From Streptantibioticus cattleyicolor NRRL 8057 = DSM 46488 (GTDB lineage: Bacteria > Actinomycetota > Actinomycetes > Streptomycetales > Streptomycetaceae): 64,000 bases of DNA. A program made the translations under genes and the position numbers. The notes under the pieces were generated by a model, which saw only the letters and a program-made list of their open reading frames with translations, did not search any database and was not told where the DNA came from. The stretch is from contig NC_017586.1 of NCBI RefSeq assembly GCF_000240165.1, positions 1,178,001 to 1,242,000 on the forward strand, in the 5' to 3' direction. Positions 33,687 to 40,908 of the stretch are shown here, one piece after another. Positions within the stretch are counted from its first letter, which is position 1; each line of letters opens with the position of its first letter.

Positions 33687-35744
33687 TCACCTGCCGTGCG
33701 CCTGCCGGACCGCGGCCACCTCCCCCAGCACCCGCTCCAGCACCCGGCTGCCCTCGGGCGGCAGCAACGGCTCGTACGTCCAGGTGTGGCCCACCCACGG
33801 GTCCGCCACGTGCTCCCCGGGGAACGGGGTGAGCCGCAGCAGCGACCGCCCCAGCACATCGGCCGCCACCGGCCCGCGCCCCGCCGCGTCCGCGCGCGCC
33901 GCGACCACCAGCGGGAGCACCCCGGCGTCCGGCCCCTCCTCGGCGATCCGGCCCAGCAGCGCGACGGACCGGTCGTCGAACCCGTACGGAAAGTCGTTGA
34001 CCACCAGCAGCCGGGCACCGCGCAACGGACCGGGCAGCTTCGGGTCGGCCTGCGTACCGCGCCCGTCCGACGCCATCCGCACCAGATCCGACCGCAGCGC
34101 CAGCTCCTCCAGCACCTCCGCCACACCGCCCGGCCGTTCGGCGAGGACGCCCGCCCGGCGCAACGCCTCCGCCGCCGGACCGAAGGCCGCCGCGGCGGTC
34201 CCGGCCGGATCCAGCAGATGAACGGTGAGCCCGCCGGCCGGGTGGACGGCGAGCAACCGCACCACCAGCGCCACGGCCGTCTCCAGCGCCCGCCGCCGCA
34301 CCTGCTCCGCCTCCGGCCCGGCCTCATCCGCCAGGTCCGCGTCGTGCCCGCTGTCCACCCACAGCCCGCACTCCAGCGGCAGCCGCGTCAGCATCGGTAT
34401 GCGCAGCTCGGGCACCTCCGGCAGATGGAGATCACCGAGCCGTACCGCCCAGGGCAGCGCCTCCGGCGGACGGTACGCCTGCCACACCGGGCTCTCCCAC
34501 CCCGCGCACCCGGACGGCAGCGCGGGCTCGACCACCTCCGACTCCGCGGTGAGCTGCCGCAGGTCCCGGTCGAGGGCGGCCCTCGCCTGGTCCACCAGCG
34601 CCTGCCGGGCGGCCGACGCCTGGTCCCGGGCGGCCTCCACGGCGGCCCCCAGCCGCGACCCCGGCTCCCCGAGCAACCGGTCGAGCTCCCGCTCCAACCG
34701 CCCGTCCGCGAACTCCACCGCCCCCCGATACCCCGCCATCGCCCTCGCCAGATCCTCGAACATCCCGTTGACCTGGTTGTACAGCCGCTCCTCCAGACTC
34801 CACCCCGCGGCATCCCCCGCGTAAGGCAGCCACCCCGGCCCCCCCACCCCCCTCGTCCAACGCCCGCCGCGGCGAAGGCAGAACGGAAACGCCCCCCGCC
34901 ACCGGGCCGGACGGCTGGGGCGGGGTTGCCGAGGCGGGAAGGCGGGCGGGGGCGGGGTGACCCGGCGGTGTCGCCGAGGCGGGGGGTACCGGAGCCGTGG
35001 GGCTGCCGGAGCCCACGGGGGCCCCGGAGCCCCATGGTCGGCGGAGCCGTCCGGGACCGCGGGGCCTGGCGGCAGCGGCGGCGGGGGCGCCGACGGGGCG
35101 GGCGGGGGCGTCAGGGCCGCGGGGCCTGGCGGCGGGAGTGCCGGGGCCGGGGGGCTCGGCGGGGCCGGGGCGGAGCATCGGGGGCCGGCTATCGCCTGGT
35201 CCACGGCGGCGGCCACGGCCGCCGGGTCCGGGACTCCGTGGTCGGCCAGCAGCCGCGGCAGCCCGTCCGCGTACCCCTGGCCGACGGCGCGCAGCCGCCA
35301 GCCGCCGTGCCGGCGGTACAGCTCCACGGCGACGACCGCGGTCTCGGTGTCCAGGCCGGTCAGCACGAAGGCGAGCGGCTCGGCCGAGCCGTCCTCGCCG
35401 GTGACCCGCACGCGCGGCGGCGCCGGCACGCCGAACCGGTCCGGCACCCGCCGTCCGCCGCGACCGGGCGGCAACGCGAGCACCACACCGAGCCGCCCCA
35501 CCGCGGCCGGCAACTCGGCCAGATCGACGGTGAGTTCGTGATCGCGGGCGGCGGCCGGAGGCACGCGCAGCCCGTCCGCACGCGCCGGCGCGCCGGGCCG
35601 CAGGAAGCTCGCGCCTCCCCCGGCGGCACCGCGCCCCTCGTCCAGCACGGCCCCGACGACCAGCGGCACCGCCGCCGAGACGTGGATCCGCAGCCGGTTT
35701 CCCGCCAGCGGCTGGTTCTCTCCCCGTACCAGTTCGACGCCCAT
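33687..35744 (-). CDS. TerD-domain protein fused to a degenerate FtsK-like ATPase region
   Basis: A 685-residue protein in three parts. Residues 1-190 or so are a TerD domain (MGVELVRGENQPLAGNRLRI, DHELTVDLAELP, GLDTETAVVAVELYRR). Then follows a Pro/Ala-rich linker of about 130 residues. From about 325 there is a predicted coiled coil (ERLYNQVNGMFEDLARAM, AARDQASAARQALVDQARAAL) and an alpha/beta region resembling the FtsK/HerA-type proteins of ter clusters (LAVHPAGGLTVHLLDPAGTA, ARLLVVNDFPYGFDDRSVAL with a Walker-B-like strand). I see no Walker A loop, so ATP hydrolysis is doubtful. GGGAGG precedes the ATG. It lies between terD and the TerC gene. Confidence 0.85.
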   Translation of the reverse strand: MGVELVRGENQPLAGNRLRIHVSAAVPLVVGAVLDEGRGAAGGGASFLRPGAPARADGLRVPPAAARDHELTVDLAELPAAVGRLGVVLALPPGRGGRRVPDRFGVPAPPRVRVTGEDGSAEPLAFVLTGLDTETAVVAVELYRRHGGWRLRAVGQGYADGLPRLLADHGVPDPAAVAAAVDQAIAGPRCSAPAPPSPPAPALPPPGPAALTPPPAPSAPPPPLPPGPAVPDGSADHGAPGPPWAPAAPRLRYPPPRRHRRVTPPPPAFPPRQPRPSRPARWRGAFPFCLRRGGRWTRGVGGPGWLPYAGDAAGWSLEERLYNQVNGMFEDLARAMAGYRGAVEFADGRLERELDRLLGEPGSRLGAAVEAARDQASAARQALVDQARAALDRDLRQLTAESEVVEPALPSGCAGWESPVWQAYRPPEALPWAVRLGDLHLPEVPELRIPMLTRLPLECGLWVDSGHDADLADEAGPEAEQVRRRALETAVALVVRLLAVHPAGGLTVHLLDPAGTAAAAFGPAAEALRRAGVLAERPGGVAEVLEELALRSDLVRMASDGRGTQADPKLPGPLRGARLLVVNDFPYGFDDRSVALLGRIAEEGPDAGVLPLVVAARADAAGRGPVAADVLGRSLLRLTPFPGEHVADPWVGHTWTYEPLLPPEGSRVLERVLGEVAAVRQAHGR

Positions 35745-35837
35745 CGGTCCTCCCCGTTCCCTCGGTCGTCGCGGCGCCGGCGGTCCGACCGTTCCGTCCC
35801 GGGTGCGGCAGGCTCACGCGGTCGGCGGCGCCCCCGC

Positions 35838-36416
35838 TCACAGGTGCGGCACGATCGAACCCATCAGGTCGTTGATGGTCCGGCCGCCGGCCGGGGCACC
35901 GATCGCGGTCATCGACCAGGCGCCGCCGGAACGGTGCACCTTGGCCATGATCTGCCCGGTGTACGGGCCGCCGCCGGTGAGGGTGTAACGGGCCAGCTCC
36001 TGGCCGTTGGTCTCGTCGACCAGCCGGCAGAACGCGTTCCGGACCTCCTCGAAGGTCTGCCCGGTGAAGGAGTTGACGGTGAAGACGATCTGGTCGACGT
36101 GGACCGGAACGCGCTCCAGGTCCACCAGGATCGCCTCGTCGTCGCCGCCCTGGCCCGCCCCGCCGACCAGGTTGTCGCCGGTGTGGCGCACCGAACCGTC
36201 CTCGCTGATCAGCTGGCGGAACCAGACCATGTCGACCCGCTGCTTGTCCGCGAAGAGCACCGCCGAGGCGTCGAGGTCTATCTCCCGGGTGCGGCGGCCG
36301 AAGAGCCCGCGGCGCGGCGCCGCCTGCCAGCCGAGCCCCATGCGGACCGCGGTCAGCGTCCCCCCACCGCTCTTGACCAGGCTGACCTGCTGGCCCTTGG
36401 ACAAGTTCACCGTCAC
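35838..36416 (-). CDS. terD: TerD family protein
   Basis: A 192-residue TerD-type calcium-binding stress protein. It begins VTVNLSKGQQVSLVKSGGG, has the WFRQLISEDGSVRHTGDNL region with acidic calcium-site residues, DEAILVDLERVPVHVDQIVF, and ARYTLTGGGPYTGQIMAKV. A Gly/Arg insertion (PRRGLFGRRTREIDLD) near residue 36 is found in streptomycete paralogues. The GTG at 36416 has GGAGGGG about 10 bases upstream, which decides the start. It leads a unit with the TerD fusion, TerC and the CtaG-like protein, downstream of uvrB. Confidence 0.92.
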   Translation of the reverse strand: MTVNLSKGQQVSLVKSGGGTLTAVRMGLGWQAAPRRGLFGRRTREIDLDASAVLFADKQRVDMVWFRQLISEDGSVRHTGDNLVGGAGQGGDDEAILVDLERVPVHVDQIVFTVNSFTGQTFEEVRNAFCRLVDETNGQELARYTLTGGGPYTGQIMAKVHRSGGAWSMTAIGAPAGGRTINDLMGSIVPHL

Positions 36417-36640
36417 GGGCGTTCCCCTCCGTCCGTTCGCGCGGGCCACCGCGCCGTTCCCCGCCGGATCGGTCGTTCCGGCCGCCCGGCCGCCCCTCGC
36501 GGGACGACCGGTCTCCTCGCACCCTACGCACCTCGTCCCGACGGCGGCAGGCCGGACCGGCTTTGTGGCGATCCCGCGACATCCGCGGCAGCGCCCGGCC
36601 GAGGGGACGAAGGGGGTGAAAGGGCCGATGGCCCCGCGGG

Positions 36641-38737
36641 TCAGGCGATCCCGGCCTCCCTCATCTGACGCAGCTCCTTCTTCAGCTCGCCCAACTCGTC
36701 CCGGAGGCGGGCGGCCACCTCGAACTGGAGCTCCGCGGCGGCGGTGTGCATCTGCTGCGTCAACTCCTCGATGAGATCGGTGAGTTCGTCGGCGGCCAGG
36801 CTCTTGCCCGACCGCTTCCCGGCGGACTTGGCCGACAGCCCCGGCACCGGCGACTTGCCGCGCGAGCGCTGGCGGCCGGAACCGAGCAGCTCCTCGGTGT
36901 CGGCGTCCTCCCGGGCGAAGGAGTCGAGGATCCCGGCGATCTTCTTCCGCAGCGGCTGCGGGTCGATGCCGTTCTCCTCGTTGTACGCGATCTGCTTCTG
37001 GCGCCGCCGGTTGGTCTCGTCGATGGCGCGTTCCATACCCGGGGTGATCTTGTCCGCGTACATGTGGACCTGGCCGGAGACGTTGCGCGCGGCGCGGCCG
37101 ATCGTCTGGATCAGGGAGGTGCCCGAGCGCAGGAAGCCCTCCTTGTCGGCGTCGAGGATGGCGACCAGGGAGACCTCGGGCAGGTCGAGCCCCTCACGCA
37201 GCAGGTTGATGCCGACGAGCACGTCGAACTCGCCCGCCCGCAGGTCGCGCAGGAGCTCCACCCGGCGCAGGGTGTCGATGTCGCTGTGCAGATAGCGGAC
37301 CTGGATGCCGAGCTCCAGCATGTAGTCGGTGAGGTCCTCGGCCATCTTCTTGGTGAGCGTGGTCACCAGCACCCGCTCGTCGCGTTCGGCGCGCAGCCGG
37401 ATCTCGTGCACCAGGTCGTCGATCTGGCCCTCGGTCGGCTTGACGATCACCTCGGGGTCGATCAGCCCGGTCGGGCGGATGATCTGCTCGACCACGCCGT
37501 CGGAGCGGGAGAGCTCGTACGGGCCCGGGGTGGCCGACAGGTAGACGGTCTGGTCGACGCGCTCCAGGAACTCCTCCCACTTCAGCGGGCGGTTGTCGAG
37601 CGCGGACGGCAGCCGGAAGCCGTGGTCGATCAGGGTGCGCTTGCGCGAGGCGTCCCCCTCGTACATCGCGCCGATCTGCGGCACGGTGACGTGCGACTCG
37701 TCGATGACCAGCAGGAAGTCGTCGGGGAAGTAGTCGAGGAGGGTGTTGGGCGCCGTGCCGGCCTCGCGGCCGTCGATGTGCCGCGAGTAGTTCTCGATGC
37801 CGGAGCAGGTGCCGATCTGGCGCATCATCTCGATGTCGTAGGTGGTGCGCATGCGCAGCCGCTGGGCCTCCAGCAGCTTGCCCTGCTTCTCCAGCCTGGC
37901 CAGCGTGGTCTCCAGCTCGGACTCGATGCCGGCGATCGCCCGTTCCATCCGCTCGGGGCCGGCCACGTAGTGGGTGGCCGGGAAGACGTACAGCTCCTGG
38001 TCCTCGGTGATCACCTCGCCGGTGAGGGGGTGGAGGGTGGAGAGCGCCTCGATCTCGTCCCCGAACATCTCGATGCGCACCGCGAGCTCCTCGTAGACCG
38101 GGAAGATCTCGATGGTGTCGCCGCGCACCCGGAAGGTGCCCCGGGTGAACGCCAGGTCGTTGCGGGTGTACTGGATGTCGACGAACCGGCGCAGCAGCTG
38201 GTCGCGGTCGATCTCGTCGCCCACCTTCAGCGGCACCATGCGGTCGACGTACTCCTGCGGCGTGCCCAGGCCGTAGATGCACGAGACGGAGGCGACGACC
38301 ACCACGTCACGCCGGGTGAGCAGGGAGTTGGTCGCGGAGTGCCGCAGCCGCTCGACCTCCTCGTTGATCGAGGAGTCCTTCTCGATGTAGGTGTCCGTCT
38401 GCGGGACGTACGCCTCCGGCTGGTAGTAGTCGTAGTAGGAGACGAAGTACTCGACCGCGTTGTTCGGCAGCAGCTCCCGGAACTCGTTGGCGAGCTGCGC
38501 GGCGAGCGTCTTGTTGGGCGCCATGACGAGCGTGGGGCGCTGGAGCTTCTCGATCATCCACGCCGTCGTGGCGGACTTGCCGGTGCCGGTGGCACCCAGC
38601 AGCACGACGTCCTTCTCGCCCGCCCGCACCCTGCGCTCCAGCTCGGCGATGGCCGCCGGCTGGTCACCGCTGGGCTGGTAAGGGCTGACGACCTGGAAGG
38701 GCGCCACCTTGCGTTCGATGTCTGATACGGGCCGCAT
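36641..38737 (-). CDS. uvrB: Excinuclease ABC subunit B
   Basis: A 698-residue UvrB helicase of nucleotide excision repair. Visible parts are Walker [17 protein letters not shown], the beta-hairpin region [24 protein letters not shown]-like [22 protein letters not shown], helicase motif [15 protein letters not shown] and QTIGRAARN, and a C-terminal UVR motif ([20 protein letters not shown]) that binds UvrC. The ATG at 38737 gives [11 protein letters not shown], and it lies 7 bases after the -10 of a damage-type promoter, so the message should be leaderless. The gene is divergent from the WGR/beta-propeller gene. Confidence 0.97.
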
Positions 38738-38744
38738 GGAACCC

Positions 38745-38767
38745 ACCGTACGACCCGCCACTGACAA
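38745..38767 (-). promoter_or_regulatory. PafBC/RecA-NDp-type DNA damage promoter of uvrB
   Basis: Minus-strand TTGTCAGTG (38767-38759), N8, TACGGT (38750-38745): an exact match to TTGTCRGTG-N8-TANNNT, the RecA-independent damage promoter motif of mycobacteria. The uvrB ATG follows after 7 bases. Confidence 0.85.
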
Positions 38768-38808
38768 AGGGCGCGCGCCGGCCCGGCGGCCTCCTCGGCG
38801 GCGGGGCG

Positions 38809-38831
38809 TTGTCAGTGGCCGCTCCTAGGGT
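38809..38831 (+). promoter_or_regulatory. PafBC/RecA-NDp-type DNA damage promoter of the WGR/beta-propeller gene
   Basis: TTGTCAGTG (38809-38817), N8, TAGGGT (38826-38831): exact consensus, facing away from the uvrB copy. The two -35 elements form a 10-base inverted repeat (CCACTGACAA and TTGTCAGTGG) 41 bases apart. Confidence 0.85.
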
Positions 38832-38881
38832 TCGTCGGTGTGGGGGGCGGCTGCTGGGGCCGTCCGGGAAGGGGTTGTGCG

Positions 38882-40330
38882 GTGTCGGTGTCCACGACGT
38901 ACCTGGAGCTGTCGGAGAACGGCGGCGGGGCGCACAAGTTCTACGAGGTGACGGTGGAGGGCGTGGCCGTCACGGTGCGCTACGGGCGGATCGGGGCCGC
39001 CGGGCAGGTGCAGCGTTCCACGTTCCCGAGCGAGCAGAAGGCGCAGGCCGCGGCGGCGAAGAAGATCGGCGAGAAGGTGCGCAAGGGGTACGCGCCGGCG
39101 GTGCCGGGGCAGCGGGCGGCCCGGCCGGTCACCCGGCGCCAGGTGGCCTCGGCGCCGTCGACGGCCCGGGCGGTCGCCCCGGTGCTGTGGCGGTTCCGCA
39201 CCGGTGCCTCGGCGTTCGGCATACACATCGACGACGACCGCTGCTGGGTGGGCAACCAGGCGGGGGACGTCTACACCCTCGGCCACGACGGCGAGGTCCT
39301 CGCCCGCTACCGGCTGCCGGACGGCGTCAAGTGCCTGGTCGCCGACGACTTCTGGATCTACGCGGGGTGCGACGACGGCACCGTCTACGACCTGTCCTCC
39401 AAGCTGCCGTTCGCCGCCTACGAGATAGCCGCCGACGTGGACATCTTCTGGCTCGACATCCACGAGGGCATCCTCAACGTCGCCGACCGCAACGGCGGTC
39501 TGACGGTGATCGACCACGAGGACGAGTACCAGTGGTCGCGTCGGAGCACGGGGGCGCACGCCTGGATGGTGCGGCGTGACGACCACGCCGTGTACCACGG
39601 TCACGCGCGGGGTGTGACCGCGTACGCCCCGGACGGCGGCGGGGAGCTGTGGCACACCGACACCCGGGGCGCGGTGCTCTTCGGCTGGCAGGAGGACGCG
39701 TCGGTCTACGCGGGCACCGCCCAGCGGGTCGTCCAGCGGCTGGCGAAGGCCACCGGCGCGGTGGAGGCCACCTACGCCTGCGACGCGGTGGTGTACTCCT
39801 GCGCCACCGCCCCCGGCGGACGGTACGTCTTCGCCGGCGACTCGGCCTCCTCGGTCTACTGCTTCGACGCGCACGGCACCCGGCTGTGGAAGCTGGGCAC
39901 CGGCGGCGGCTCGGCGCTGTCGATGCAGTACCGGGACGAGAAGCTGTACATGGTGACCACGGACGGTTCGCTGGTGTGCGTGGACGCCTCGCCGGCCGCG
40001 ATATCGGCCGCGCAGTCCGGCAGCGTGCCGGTGCCGGTGGACGTCAAGTCCTCGGCGGCGCTGCCCACCTACACCCCGTCGACGGCCGTGCGGACGGTGG
40101 CGTCGGCGCAGGCGGTGACGGGCGCGGGGGCGGACGGCGTGGTGGTCGAGTGCGTCCGGGACGGGGCACGGCTGCGGGTCCACGTGGTCTCGGAAGGGTA
40201 CGAGCCGACGTGGAACGTGCAGTTCCCGCGGGCCGTCCGGGAGGCCGGCGCCCGATTCCTGGTGGACGCGCTGCACCCGGCACCCGGCGGCTTCTACCGG
40301 GTGCGCGGGGAGATCCGGCGGCTGGTGTGA
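38882..40330 (+). CDS. WGR-domain protein with a C-terminal PQQ/WD-like beta-propeller
   Basis: A 482-residue protein of unknown function. Residues 1-75 or so are a WGR domain (YLELSENGGGAHKFYEVTVE, then VTVRYGRIGAAGQ, where Tyr replaces the Trp, then an alpha-helix with AQAAAAKKIGEKVRKGY), a module that in PARPs and MolR-type proteins contacts nucleic acid. From about 105 repeated beta-sheet units appear (DRCWVGNQAGDVYTLGHDGE, DDFWIYAGCDDGTVYDLSS, GRYVFAGDSASSVYCFDAHG, EKLYMVTTDGSLVCVDAS), a beta-propeller of the PQQ/outer-membrane-assembly type but without a signal peptide. I use the GTG at 38882 with GGAAGGGG upstream; an in-frame GTG at 38840, where transcription should begin, is an alternative. 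Its promoter links it to the DNA-damage response. Confidence 0.85.
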   Translation: MSVSTTYLELSENGGGAHKFYEVTVEGVAVTVRYGRIGAAGQVQRSTFPSEQKAQAAAAKKIGEKVRKGYAPAVPGQRAARPVTRRQVASAPSTARAVAPVLWRFRTGASAFGIHIDDDRCWVGNQAGDVYTLGHDGEVLARYRLPDGVKCLVADDFWIYAGCDDGTVYDLSSKLPFAAYEIAADVDIFWLDIHEGILNVADRNGGLTVIDHEDEYQWSRRSTGAHAWMVRRDDHAVYHGHARGVTAYAPDGGGELWHTDTRGAVLFGWQEDASVYAGTAQRVVQRLAKATGAVEATYACDAVVYSCATAPGGRYVFAGDSASSVYCFDAHGTRLWKLGTGGGSALSMQYRDEKLYMVTTDGSLVCVDASPAAISAAQSGSVPVPVDVKSSAALPTYTPSTAVRTVASAQAVTGAGADGVVVECVRDGARLRVHVVSEGYEPTWNVQFPRAVREAGARFLVDALHPAPGGFYRVRGEIRRLV

Positions 40331-40342
40331 CGGCCGGGGGCG

Positions 40343-40365
40343 TTGTCGGTGGCGGGGCATACGCT
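40343..40365 (+). promoter_or_regulatory. PafBC/RecA-NDp-type DNA damage promoter of ogt
   Basis: TTGTCGGTG (40343-40351), N8, TACGCT (40360-40365): exact match to the motif with R = G. The ogt GTG starts 7 bases after the -10, consistent with a leaderless transcript. Confidence 0.85.
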
Positions 40366-40371
40366 GGCGGC

Positions 40372-40908
40372 GTGAAGGTGATCTGGACGGTGCGGGAGAC
40401 CCCGATCGGCCCGCTGTTCCTGGCCGCGACGGATCAGGGGCTGGCCACTGTCGGCTTCCGGGCCGGGGAACAGGTGGTGGAGCGGACGGTACGCCGGCTG
40501 GCCGGGCGGTTCGGCACCGATCCGGTGCCCGGCGAGCCCGCGGACGACGCCCATCTGGCGCTTGCGGCACGGGAGTTGGACGCCTACTTCGCCGGGGAGC
40601 TGCGCGACTTCACCGTCGAGCTGGACTGGTCGCTCAGCGGCGGTTTCAACCGGCGGGTCCTGCACGAGCTGGCCACCGGTGTACCGTACGGCACCGTCGT
40701 CGGCTACCAGACGCTCGCCGACCGCGTCGGCGAACCCGGCGCCGCCCGGGCCGTCGGGGTCGCCATGGGCTCCAACCCGCTGCCCGTCGTCGTCCCCTGC
40801 CACCGCGTGGTGGAGAGCGACGGCGGCATCGGCGGCTTCGGCGGCGGCCTGGAGATCAAGCGGACCCTCCTCGGCCTGGAGGGCGTCCTCCCCCAGCCAC
40901 TGTTCTGA
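40372..40908 (+). CDS. ogt: Methylated-DNA--protein-cysteine methyltransferase
   Basis: A 178-residue O6-alkylguanine-DNA alkyltransferase that repairs alkylated guanine by irreversible transfer to its own cysteine. The active site is VVVPCHRVV with Cys 143; the helix-turn-helix region GVPYGTVVGYQTLADRVG and the recognition-helix segment ARAVGVAMGSNPLP are present, and the N-terminal ribonuclease-H-like domain (PIGPLFLAATDQGLATVGF) is normal. The start is the GTG at 40372 just after its damage promoter. It lies 41 bases after the WGR/beta-propeller gene and has its own promoter. Confidence 0.96.
   Translation: MKVIWTVRETPIGPLFLAATDQGLATVGFRAGEQVVERTVRRLAGRFGTDPVPGEPADDAHLALAARELDAYFAGELRDFTVELDWSLSGGFNRRVLHELATGVPYGTVVGYQTLADRVGEPGAARAVGVAMGSNPLPVVVPCHRVVESDGGIGGFGGGLEIKRTLLGLEGVLPQPLF

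Follow-up and report, generated by a model that had tools for sequence, protein, structure and literature searches.

The short stretch between uvrB and a gene encoding a WGR-domain protein probably contains two independent and complete promoters of the PafBC type (RecA-NDp), one for each gene, that stand back to back by happenstance. We searched both strands of the window, that is, the entire 64,000-nt stretch of DNA analysed here, for the motif TTGTCRGTG-N8-TANNNT, using 100 dinucleotide shuffles of the window as control. Two exact sites were found back to back, just as the earlier note had claimed: one on the minus strand at 38745-38767, upstream of uvrB (-26 element 38759-38767, -10 element TACGGT at 38745-38750, predicted start 38737/38738), and one on the plus strand at 38809-38831, upstream of the WGR gene (-26 element 38809-38817, -10 element TAGGGT at 38826-38831, predicted start ~38838). 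The gene order in the window is uvrB, WGR, ogt, and a third exact PafBC-type promoter, absent from that note, lies between the latter two genes (40343-40365, plus strand, predicted start 40372).

That both sites are chance matches without a regulatory role is an explanation to which we give next to no credence, in agreement with the earlier note. The exact motif is absent from all 100 shuffles, base composition would give ~0.001 exact sites in the window and 0.12 in the genome, and the genome-wide motif scan proposed there as a check, carried out on the source genome (8.10 Mb, two contigs), gave 24 exact sites against none for the reversed pattern. Five of the 24 sites are without a convincing gene, as would suit chance matches, but placement of the motif is kept at 80 of 80 WGR loci and 22 of 22 uvrB loci (see below).

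The TTGTCRGTG element had been labelled a -35 element, an identity ruled out by its position. If transcription starts seven bases past the -10 element, TTGTCRGTG spans -29 to -21, and the label is wrong because this location fits the -26 element contacted by PafB, PafBC being reported to sit between promoter DNA and sigma domain 4 (PMC11804915). The inverted repeat that had been described is indeed perfect, with a 41-base spacer, although its arms (38757-38767 and 38809-38819) are 11 bases long rather than 10; it provides no extra evidence because it is a by-product of two -26 elements pointing apart. We also looked for an SOS box, taking TCGAACN4GTTCGA to be its consensus. With up to three mismatches allowed, this was unmatched in 38738-38840, a result to be read alongside the degeneracy of the SOS boxes given for S. 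venezuelae (PMC9380542).

The uvrB gene (36641-38737, minus strand) matches the NCBIfam UvrB model over cut-off as well as the Pfam UvrB domains, and transcription is predicted to start at its ATG, so that it looks leaderless. The ogt-like gene (40372-40908, plus strand), encoding an O6-methylguanine-DNA methyltransferase with Pfam DNA_binding_1 and Methyltransf_1N domains over cut-off, is likewise predicted to be leaderless, its GTG coinciding with the predicted start. The WGR gene (38882-40330, plus strand) encodes a WGR domain (Pfam WGR 65.9 bits, cut-off 22, residues 5-74) and a beta-propeller (PQQ_2 over cut-off). Its GTG start at 38882 is backed by aligned orthologue N termini, and GGAAGGGG at 38867-38874, read by eye, is a likely ribosome-binding site. 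A leaderless start at the in-frame GTG at 38840 was considered and rejected: the orthologues start near 38882, and in all 80 loci 48-95 bases separate the end of the motif from the matched start.

Conservation of the WGR promoter was assessed in the best 80 of 396 relatives (78 from Streptomyces, one from Streptosporangium and one from an actinobacterium). This predominance of Streptomyces led us to place the source organism in Streptomycetaceae. The motif is present upstream of the WGR gene in all 80, with 67 exact matches and 13 with one mismatch (12 of the 13 at the first T), a level of conservation that is inflated by kinship, the 80 loci being from close relatives. In an alignment anchored at the motif there is little or no variation in TGTCAGTG or in the three fixed bases (T, A, T) of the -10 element, and every site reads TGTCAG. 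No -35 consensus is seen in these 80 sequences: columns -36 to -31 carry 0.36-0.92 bit and read C-G-G-C-C-G, unlike TTGACA. Four further family genomes all have the motif before the WGR gene (two exact, two with one mismatch). None of eight full-length WGR orthologues from two other families has it, and thus the link to the motif is not a general property of the WGR protein. The protein itself is patchily distributed, with matches in 28 of 296 class genomes (21 of them full-length) and in 4 of 16 chosen family genomes. Some of the class-wide loci lie on contigs equal in length to those of the 80 loci (for example L121 and L114), and the two sets were therefore not summed.

The uvrB promoter is similarly conserved. 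All 22 of the 80 WGR loci that reach the uvrB start have the motif (19 exact, three with one mismatch), with the start codon 6-7 bases further on, as do 24 of 26 further genomes (18 exact, six with one mismatch); uvrB in the remaining two lacks it, even with one mismatch allowed. For ogt genes found near the WGR gene, the motif is present in 11 of 19 cases (nine exact, two with one mismatch) and missing from eight. Two TerD-domain genes adjoin uvrB in the window (33687-36449, minus strand), and a TerD relative adjoins uvrB in five of the 80 WGR loci.

Does the back-to-back arrangement have a function of its own? The earlier note took the stretch to be a single damage switch controlling both genes, with the two -26 elements, in this scheme, forming a shared operator that co-regulates uvrB and the WGR gene. 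The perfect 11-base inverted repeat speaks for such a bidirectional switch, as do the predicted starts, which are ~100 bases apart (two polymerases might affect each other), and the occurrence in six near relatives of uvrB back to back with a motif-bearing ogt. We nevertheless consider it very unlikely, and the claim of a single switch did not survive comparison with related genomes. None of the 80 orthologous loci has uvrB and the WGR gene in back-to-back order; where both are seen (22 loci), they lie 1.36-3.65 kb apart and each has its own motif. Among 26 family genomes, drawn from the genera nearest in UvrB identity, six have uvrB facing ogt, each gene having a motif (exact or with one mismatch), but the gaps between the -26 elements there are 26, 68, 68, 70, 127 and 129 bases, against 41 bases in the window. 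One of these six genomes (G025, locus L219) has a WGR gene after ogt, again with its own motif, whilst in a seventh genome (L224) ogt faces uvrB but is without a motif. The -10 boxes, moreover, are complete on both sides, and the direction of the motif is reported to be essential in M. tuberculosis (PMC8151990).

Each gene keeps its motif through changes in gene order and gap, and motif direction is reported to be essential. We therefore favour two independent promoters over a shared uvrB/WGR operator, and since each gene appears to have an oriented promoter of its own, the unit of regulation would be the gene and not the intergenic region. We conclude from these comparisons that the genes have probably changed places whilst mostly keeping their promoters, with the juxtaposition in the window being a gene-order quirk of the lineage.

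If a joint damage switch does exist in Streptomycetaceae, the better candidate is at another locus, where a back-to-back pair is more widely conserved than that of uvrB and WGR. The pattern CACTGACA-N25-55-TGTCAGTG occurs in 230 of 394 family genomes, the reversed control occurring in eight (counted from the listing). We fetched 30 pair loci, 28 of which come from one genus; at 28 of the 30 the pair separates a gene encoding a SWIM-like protein (CxCxnCxH motif seen by eye, no Pfam match) from one encoding a MoxR-type AAA ATPase. The -10 element reads TANNNT on the SWIM-like side in 28 of 28 loci and CANNNT (26) or GANNNT (two) on the MoxR side, and 19 of the 30 have a 36-base gap. The source genome has such a pair at C2:3971436-3971516 (L036), with CAAGGT on the MoxR side and with DUF5682 and VWA genes following that for the MoxR-type ATPase.

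The source genome encodes the expected regulator. The best PDB matches of PafB (L035:6792-7781) and PafC (L035:7796-8746, start picked by us) are the M. smegmatis PafB and PafC of 7p5x (E 1.2e-56 and 2.7e-52, respectively), and the two genes lie downstream of pafA with one gene between. PafB residues R181, Y196, R204, R208, R211 and R214, all mutated in the ssDNA work of a 2025 paper (PMC11804915), are conserved without exception in an alignment read by eye. The promoters could be real and yet depend on another regulator or sigma factor, such as ClgR, with PafBC having only a minor role in Streptomycetaceae. A report on mycobacteria has ClgR recognising the P1 promoter region (PMC5656591), and no PafBC binding data for Streptomyces were found in the literature searched. 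We regard this as unlikely, however, given that PafB and PafC are both encoded, with the ssDNA-sensing residues conserved, and that the motif and its spacing equal those given for PafBC in mycobacteria (PMC8151990). Of 296 genomes of the class, 286 have PafB-like matches and 216 have the motif; with PafB-like matches so widespread, PafB absence is unusable as a class-wide test. The 13 genomes of one family (f36, counted by eye) have no more than weak PafB-like matches, and 10 of the 13 are without the motif, a correlation confounded by kinship. Taken together, the exact motif, its enrichment, its conserved placement and the encoded PafBC make the assignment of PafBC-type promoters to uvrB and the WGR gene well supported at the level of sequence.

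The motif is found throughout the family. All 150 Streptomycetaceae genomes examined, that of the window included, have at least one exact site (median 16, minimum two per genome), giving a sum of 2576 sites against 18 for the reversed control. To assign genes to the 24 sites of the source genome, we required a sense start no more than 80 bases from the site, picking the starts ourselves; 19 sites could be assigned in this way and five (L007, L008, L009, L014 and L024) were left out for want of a convincing start. Amongst the proteins encoded are UvrB, RecA, RuvC, exonuclease III, DnaX, the Ogt-like protein, the WGR protein, a RarA-like ATPase, a PD-(D/E)XK nuclease, a RecD2-type HHH-domain protein, a Z1 protein and a JetA-like protein; products with no evident repair role include a PfkB kinase and an amine-oxidase-like FAD protein. 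At 10 of the 19 sites, those of uvrB and ogt included, the start codon lies 6-9 bases past the motif, which is the expected transcription start. The site at L014 (C2:3778857-3778879) lies ~390 bases upstream of the apparent start of rpoB, a gene recognised by eye.

Genes resembling known defence systems are also found next to the motif. At L038 (C2:820000-832000), an exact site (C2:828361-828383) precedes a leaderless JetA-like gene that starts with GTG. A JetC-like gene comes next, and PADLOC classes the pair as Wadjet type III. JetA-like matches are found in 148 of the 150 family genomes, and the motif at 30 fetched JetA-like loci (that of the source genome included) is exact in 12, has one mismatch in nine and is missing from nine. 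Elsewhere in the source genome (L039:5277-8106), an exact site lies 35 bases before a Z1-domain gene that matches PADLOC MzaC and has a HATPase-domain gene upstream; this is possibly an Mza-like defence system with a damage-type promoter.

What might the WGR protein do? The tryptophan of the W-G-R motif has a role at DNA ends in PARP-type WGR domains. This residue is missing here, with the motif reading YGR (Y34-G35-R36) in 23 of 23 aligned proteins, and the domain was not classed with the DNA-break-binding WGR domains of the PARP type. The protein was modelled with a pLDDT of 83.5. Its propeller gives Z 30.6-32.3 over 265-280 residues when aligned with WD40-type propellers, seven-bladed ones among them, and propellers only were found among the matches listed when the full model was compared. 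Modelled alone, the C-terminal part has a confident fold over its last ~63 residues, but we claim no fold for it since the best Foldseek match has an E value of 0.33 and VIA-align gave none above Z 5.0 (OB-like and other small barrels). A second type of WGR protein in Streptomycetaceae, WGR-DUF4132, has a PafBC-type motif at 10 of 20 full-length loci (five exact, five with one mismatch). At one locus in the same family (L208:4939-8640, genome G032), an exact motif precedes a WGR-DUF4132 gene, which is followed by a gene for a MoxR-type ATPase.

The way in which the promoters would work can be sketched by analogy with mycobacterial work, from which we infer binding, start points, induction and PafBC as the regulator. 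Single-stranded DNA arising from lesions would bind the WYL domains of the PafB-PafC pair, and the activated PafBC would then touch both the -26 element and the housekeeping sigma factor (in its region 4), allowing RNA polymerase to start at promoters that lack a good -35 element. One such complex would fire leftwards into uvrB, with the ATG at the start point, and another rightwards into the WGR gene, giving a leader of ~44 bases, whilst the third copy of the motif would fire into ogt without a leader. More tentatively, and with considerable doubt, we can imagine a large PafBC regulon in Streptomycetaceae, in which DNA repair is linked with WGR proteins, with the MoxR-DUF5682-VWA/SWIM-like system and with defence genes of the Wadjet-like and Mza-like kinds. 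In this picture, proteins of the WGR family would be effectors of the damage response, placed in each lineage under the damage regulator in use there (LexA, DdrO or PafBC), and the WGR-propeller protein would work on DNA ends or on stalled complexes.

The promoter type is already known; the WGR gene appears to be a new member within the literature searched, with no paper on a WGR gene in the Streptomyces damage response found among the titles and abstract openings of open-access papers (most subscription papers fall outside this search). A 2022 study described a RecA/LexA-independent damage response as remaining to be shown in Streptomyces, and left the matter open on the strength of an initial search, according to which the motif of M. 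smegmatis PafBC seemed not to be conserved in S. venezuelae (PMC9380542). The enrichment of the motif, its conserved placements and the presence of PafBC genes make such a response directly testable with named targets, and give the WGR-propeller family a testable place in the damage response.

Among the closest known systems is the RecA-NDp (P1) promoter of mycobacteria, which has the same TGTCRG core followed after about ten bases by TA-N3-T (PMC8151990) and which likewise serves repair genes including uvrB; M. smegmatis uvrB mRNA is reported to be 37% lower without pafBC (PMC5656591). The Streptomycetaceae sites differ in belonging to another family, in preceding the WGR gene and ogt, in their many leaderless starts and in that PafBC dependence is here a prediction. 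The core also differs, being TGTCGG in M. smegmatis (PMC8151990) and TGTCAG at all 80 WGR sites. Use of a TGTCGG query might account for the earlier negative result in S. venezuelae, although this difference cannot be the whole reason because R is G at 15 of the 24 sites in the source genome. The earlier note was right to class the motif as that of RecA-independent damage promoters, but the type is not peculiar to mycobacteria, being known from other actinobacteria too (PMC8223512). Amongst these is S. coelicolor, where SCO6735 has a RecA-NDp promoter and its mRNA rises 5-fold after UV (PMC5087735, whose references include a paper on S. rimosus recA from 2002 and one on M. tuberculosis from 2004). 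Promoter type and family are the same as for the window sites, but SCO6735 has a single promoter serving a macrodomain gene rather than a divergent pair, and a follow-up paper on SCO6735 makes no mention of PafBC (PMC9411070). Finally, WGR genes are found under damage regulators elsewhere: in Deinococcus, genes for the WGR protein DR2173 and for a DUF4132 protein are reported to be strongly raised on DdrO depletion, and E. coli MolR is said to have been described as a member of the LexA regulon (PMC8533742). The regulators in these WGR and DUF4132 (MolR-like) systems are different ones, and the window protein combines its WGR domain with a propeller, DUF4132 being absent, but the comparison suggests that WGR proteins recur under unrelated damage regulators.
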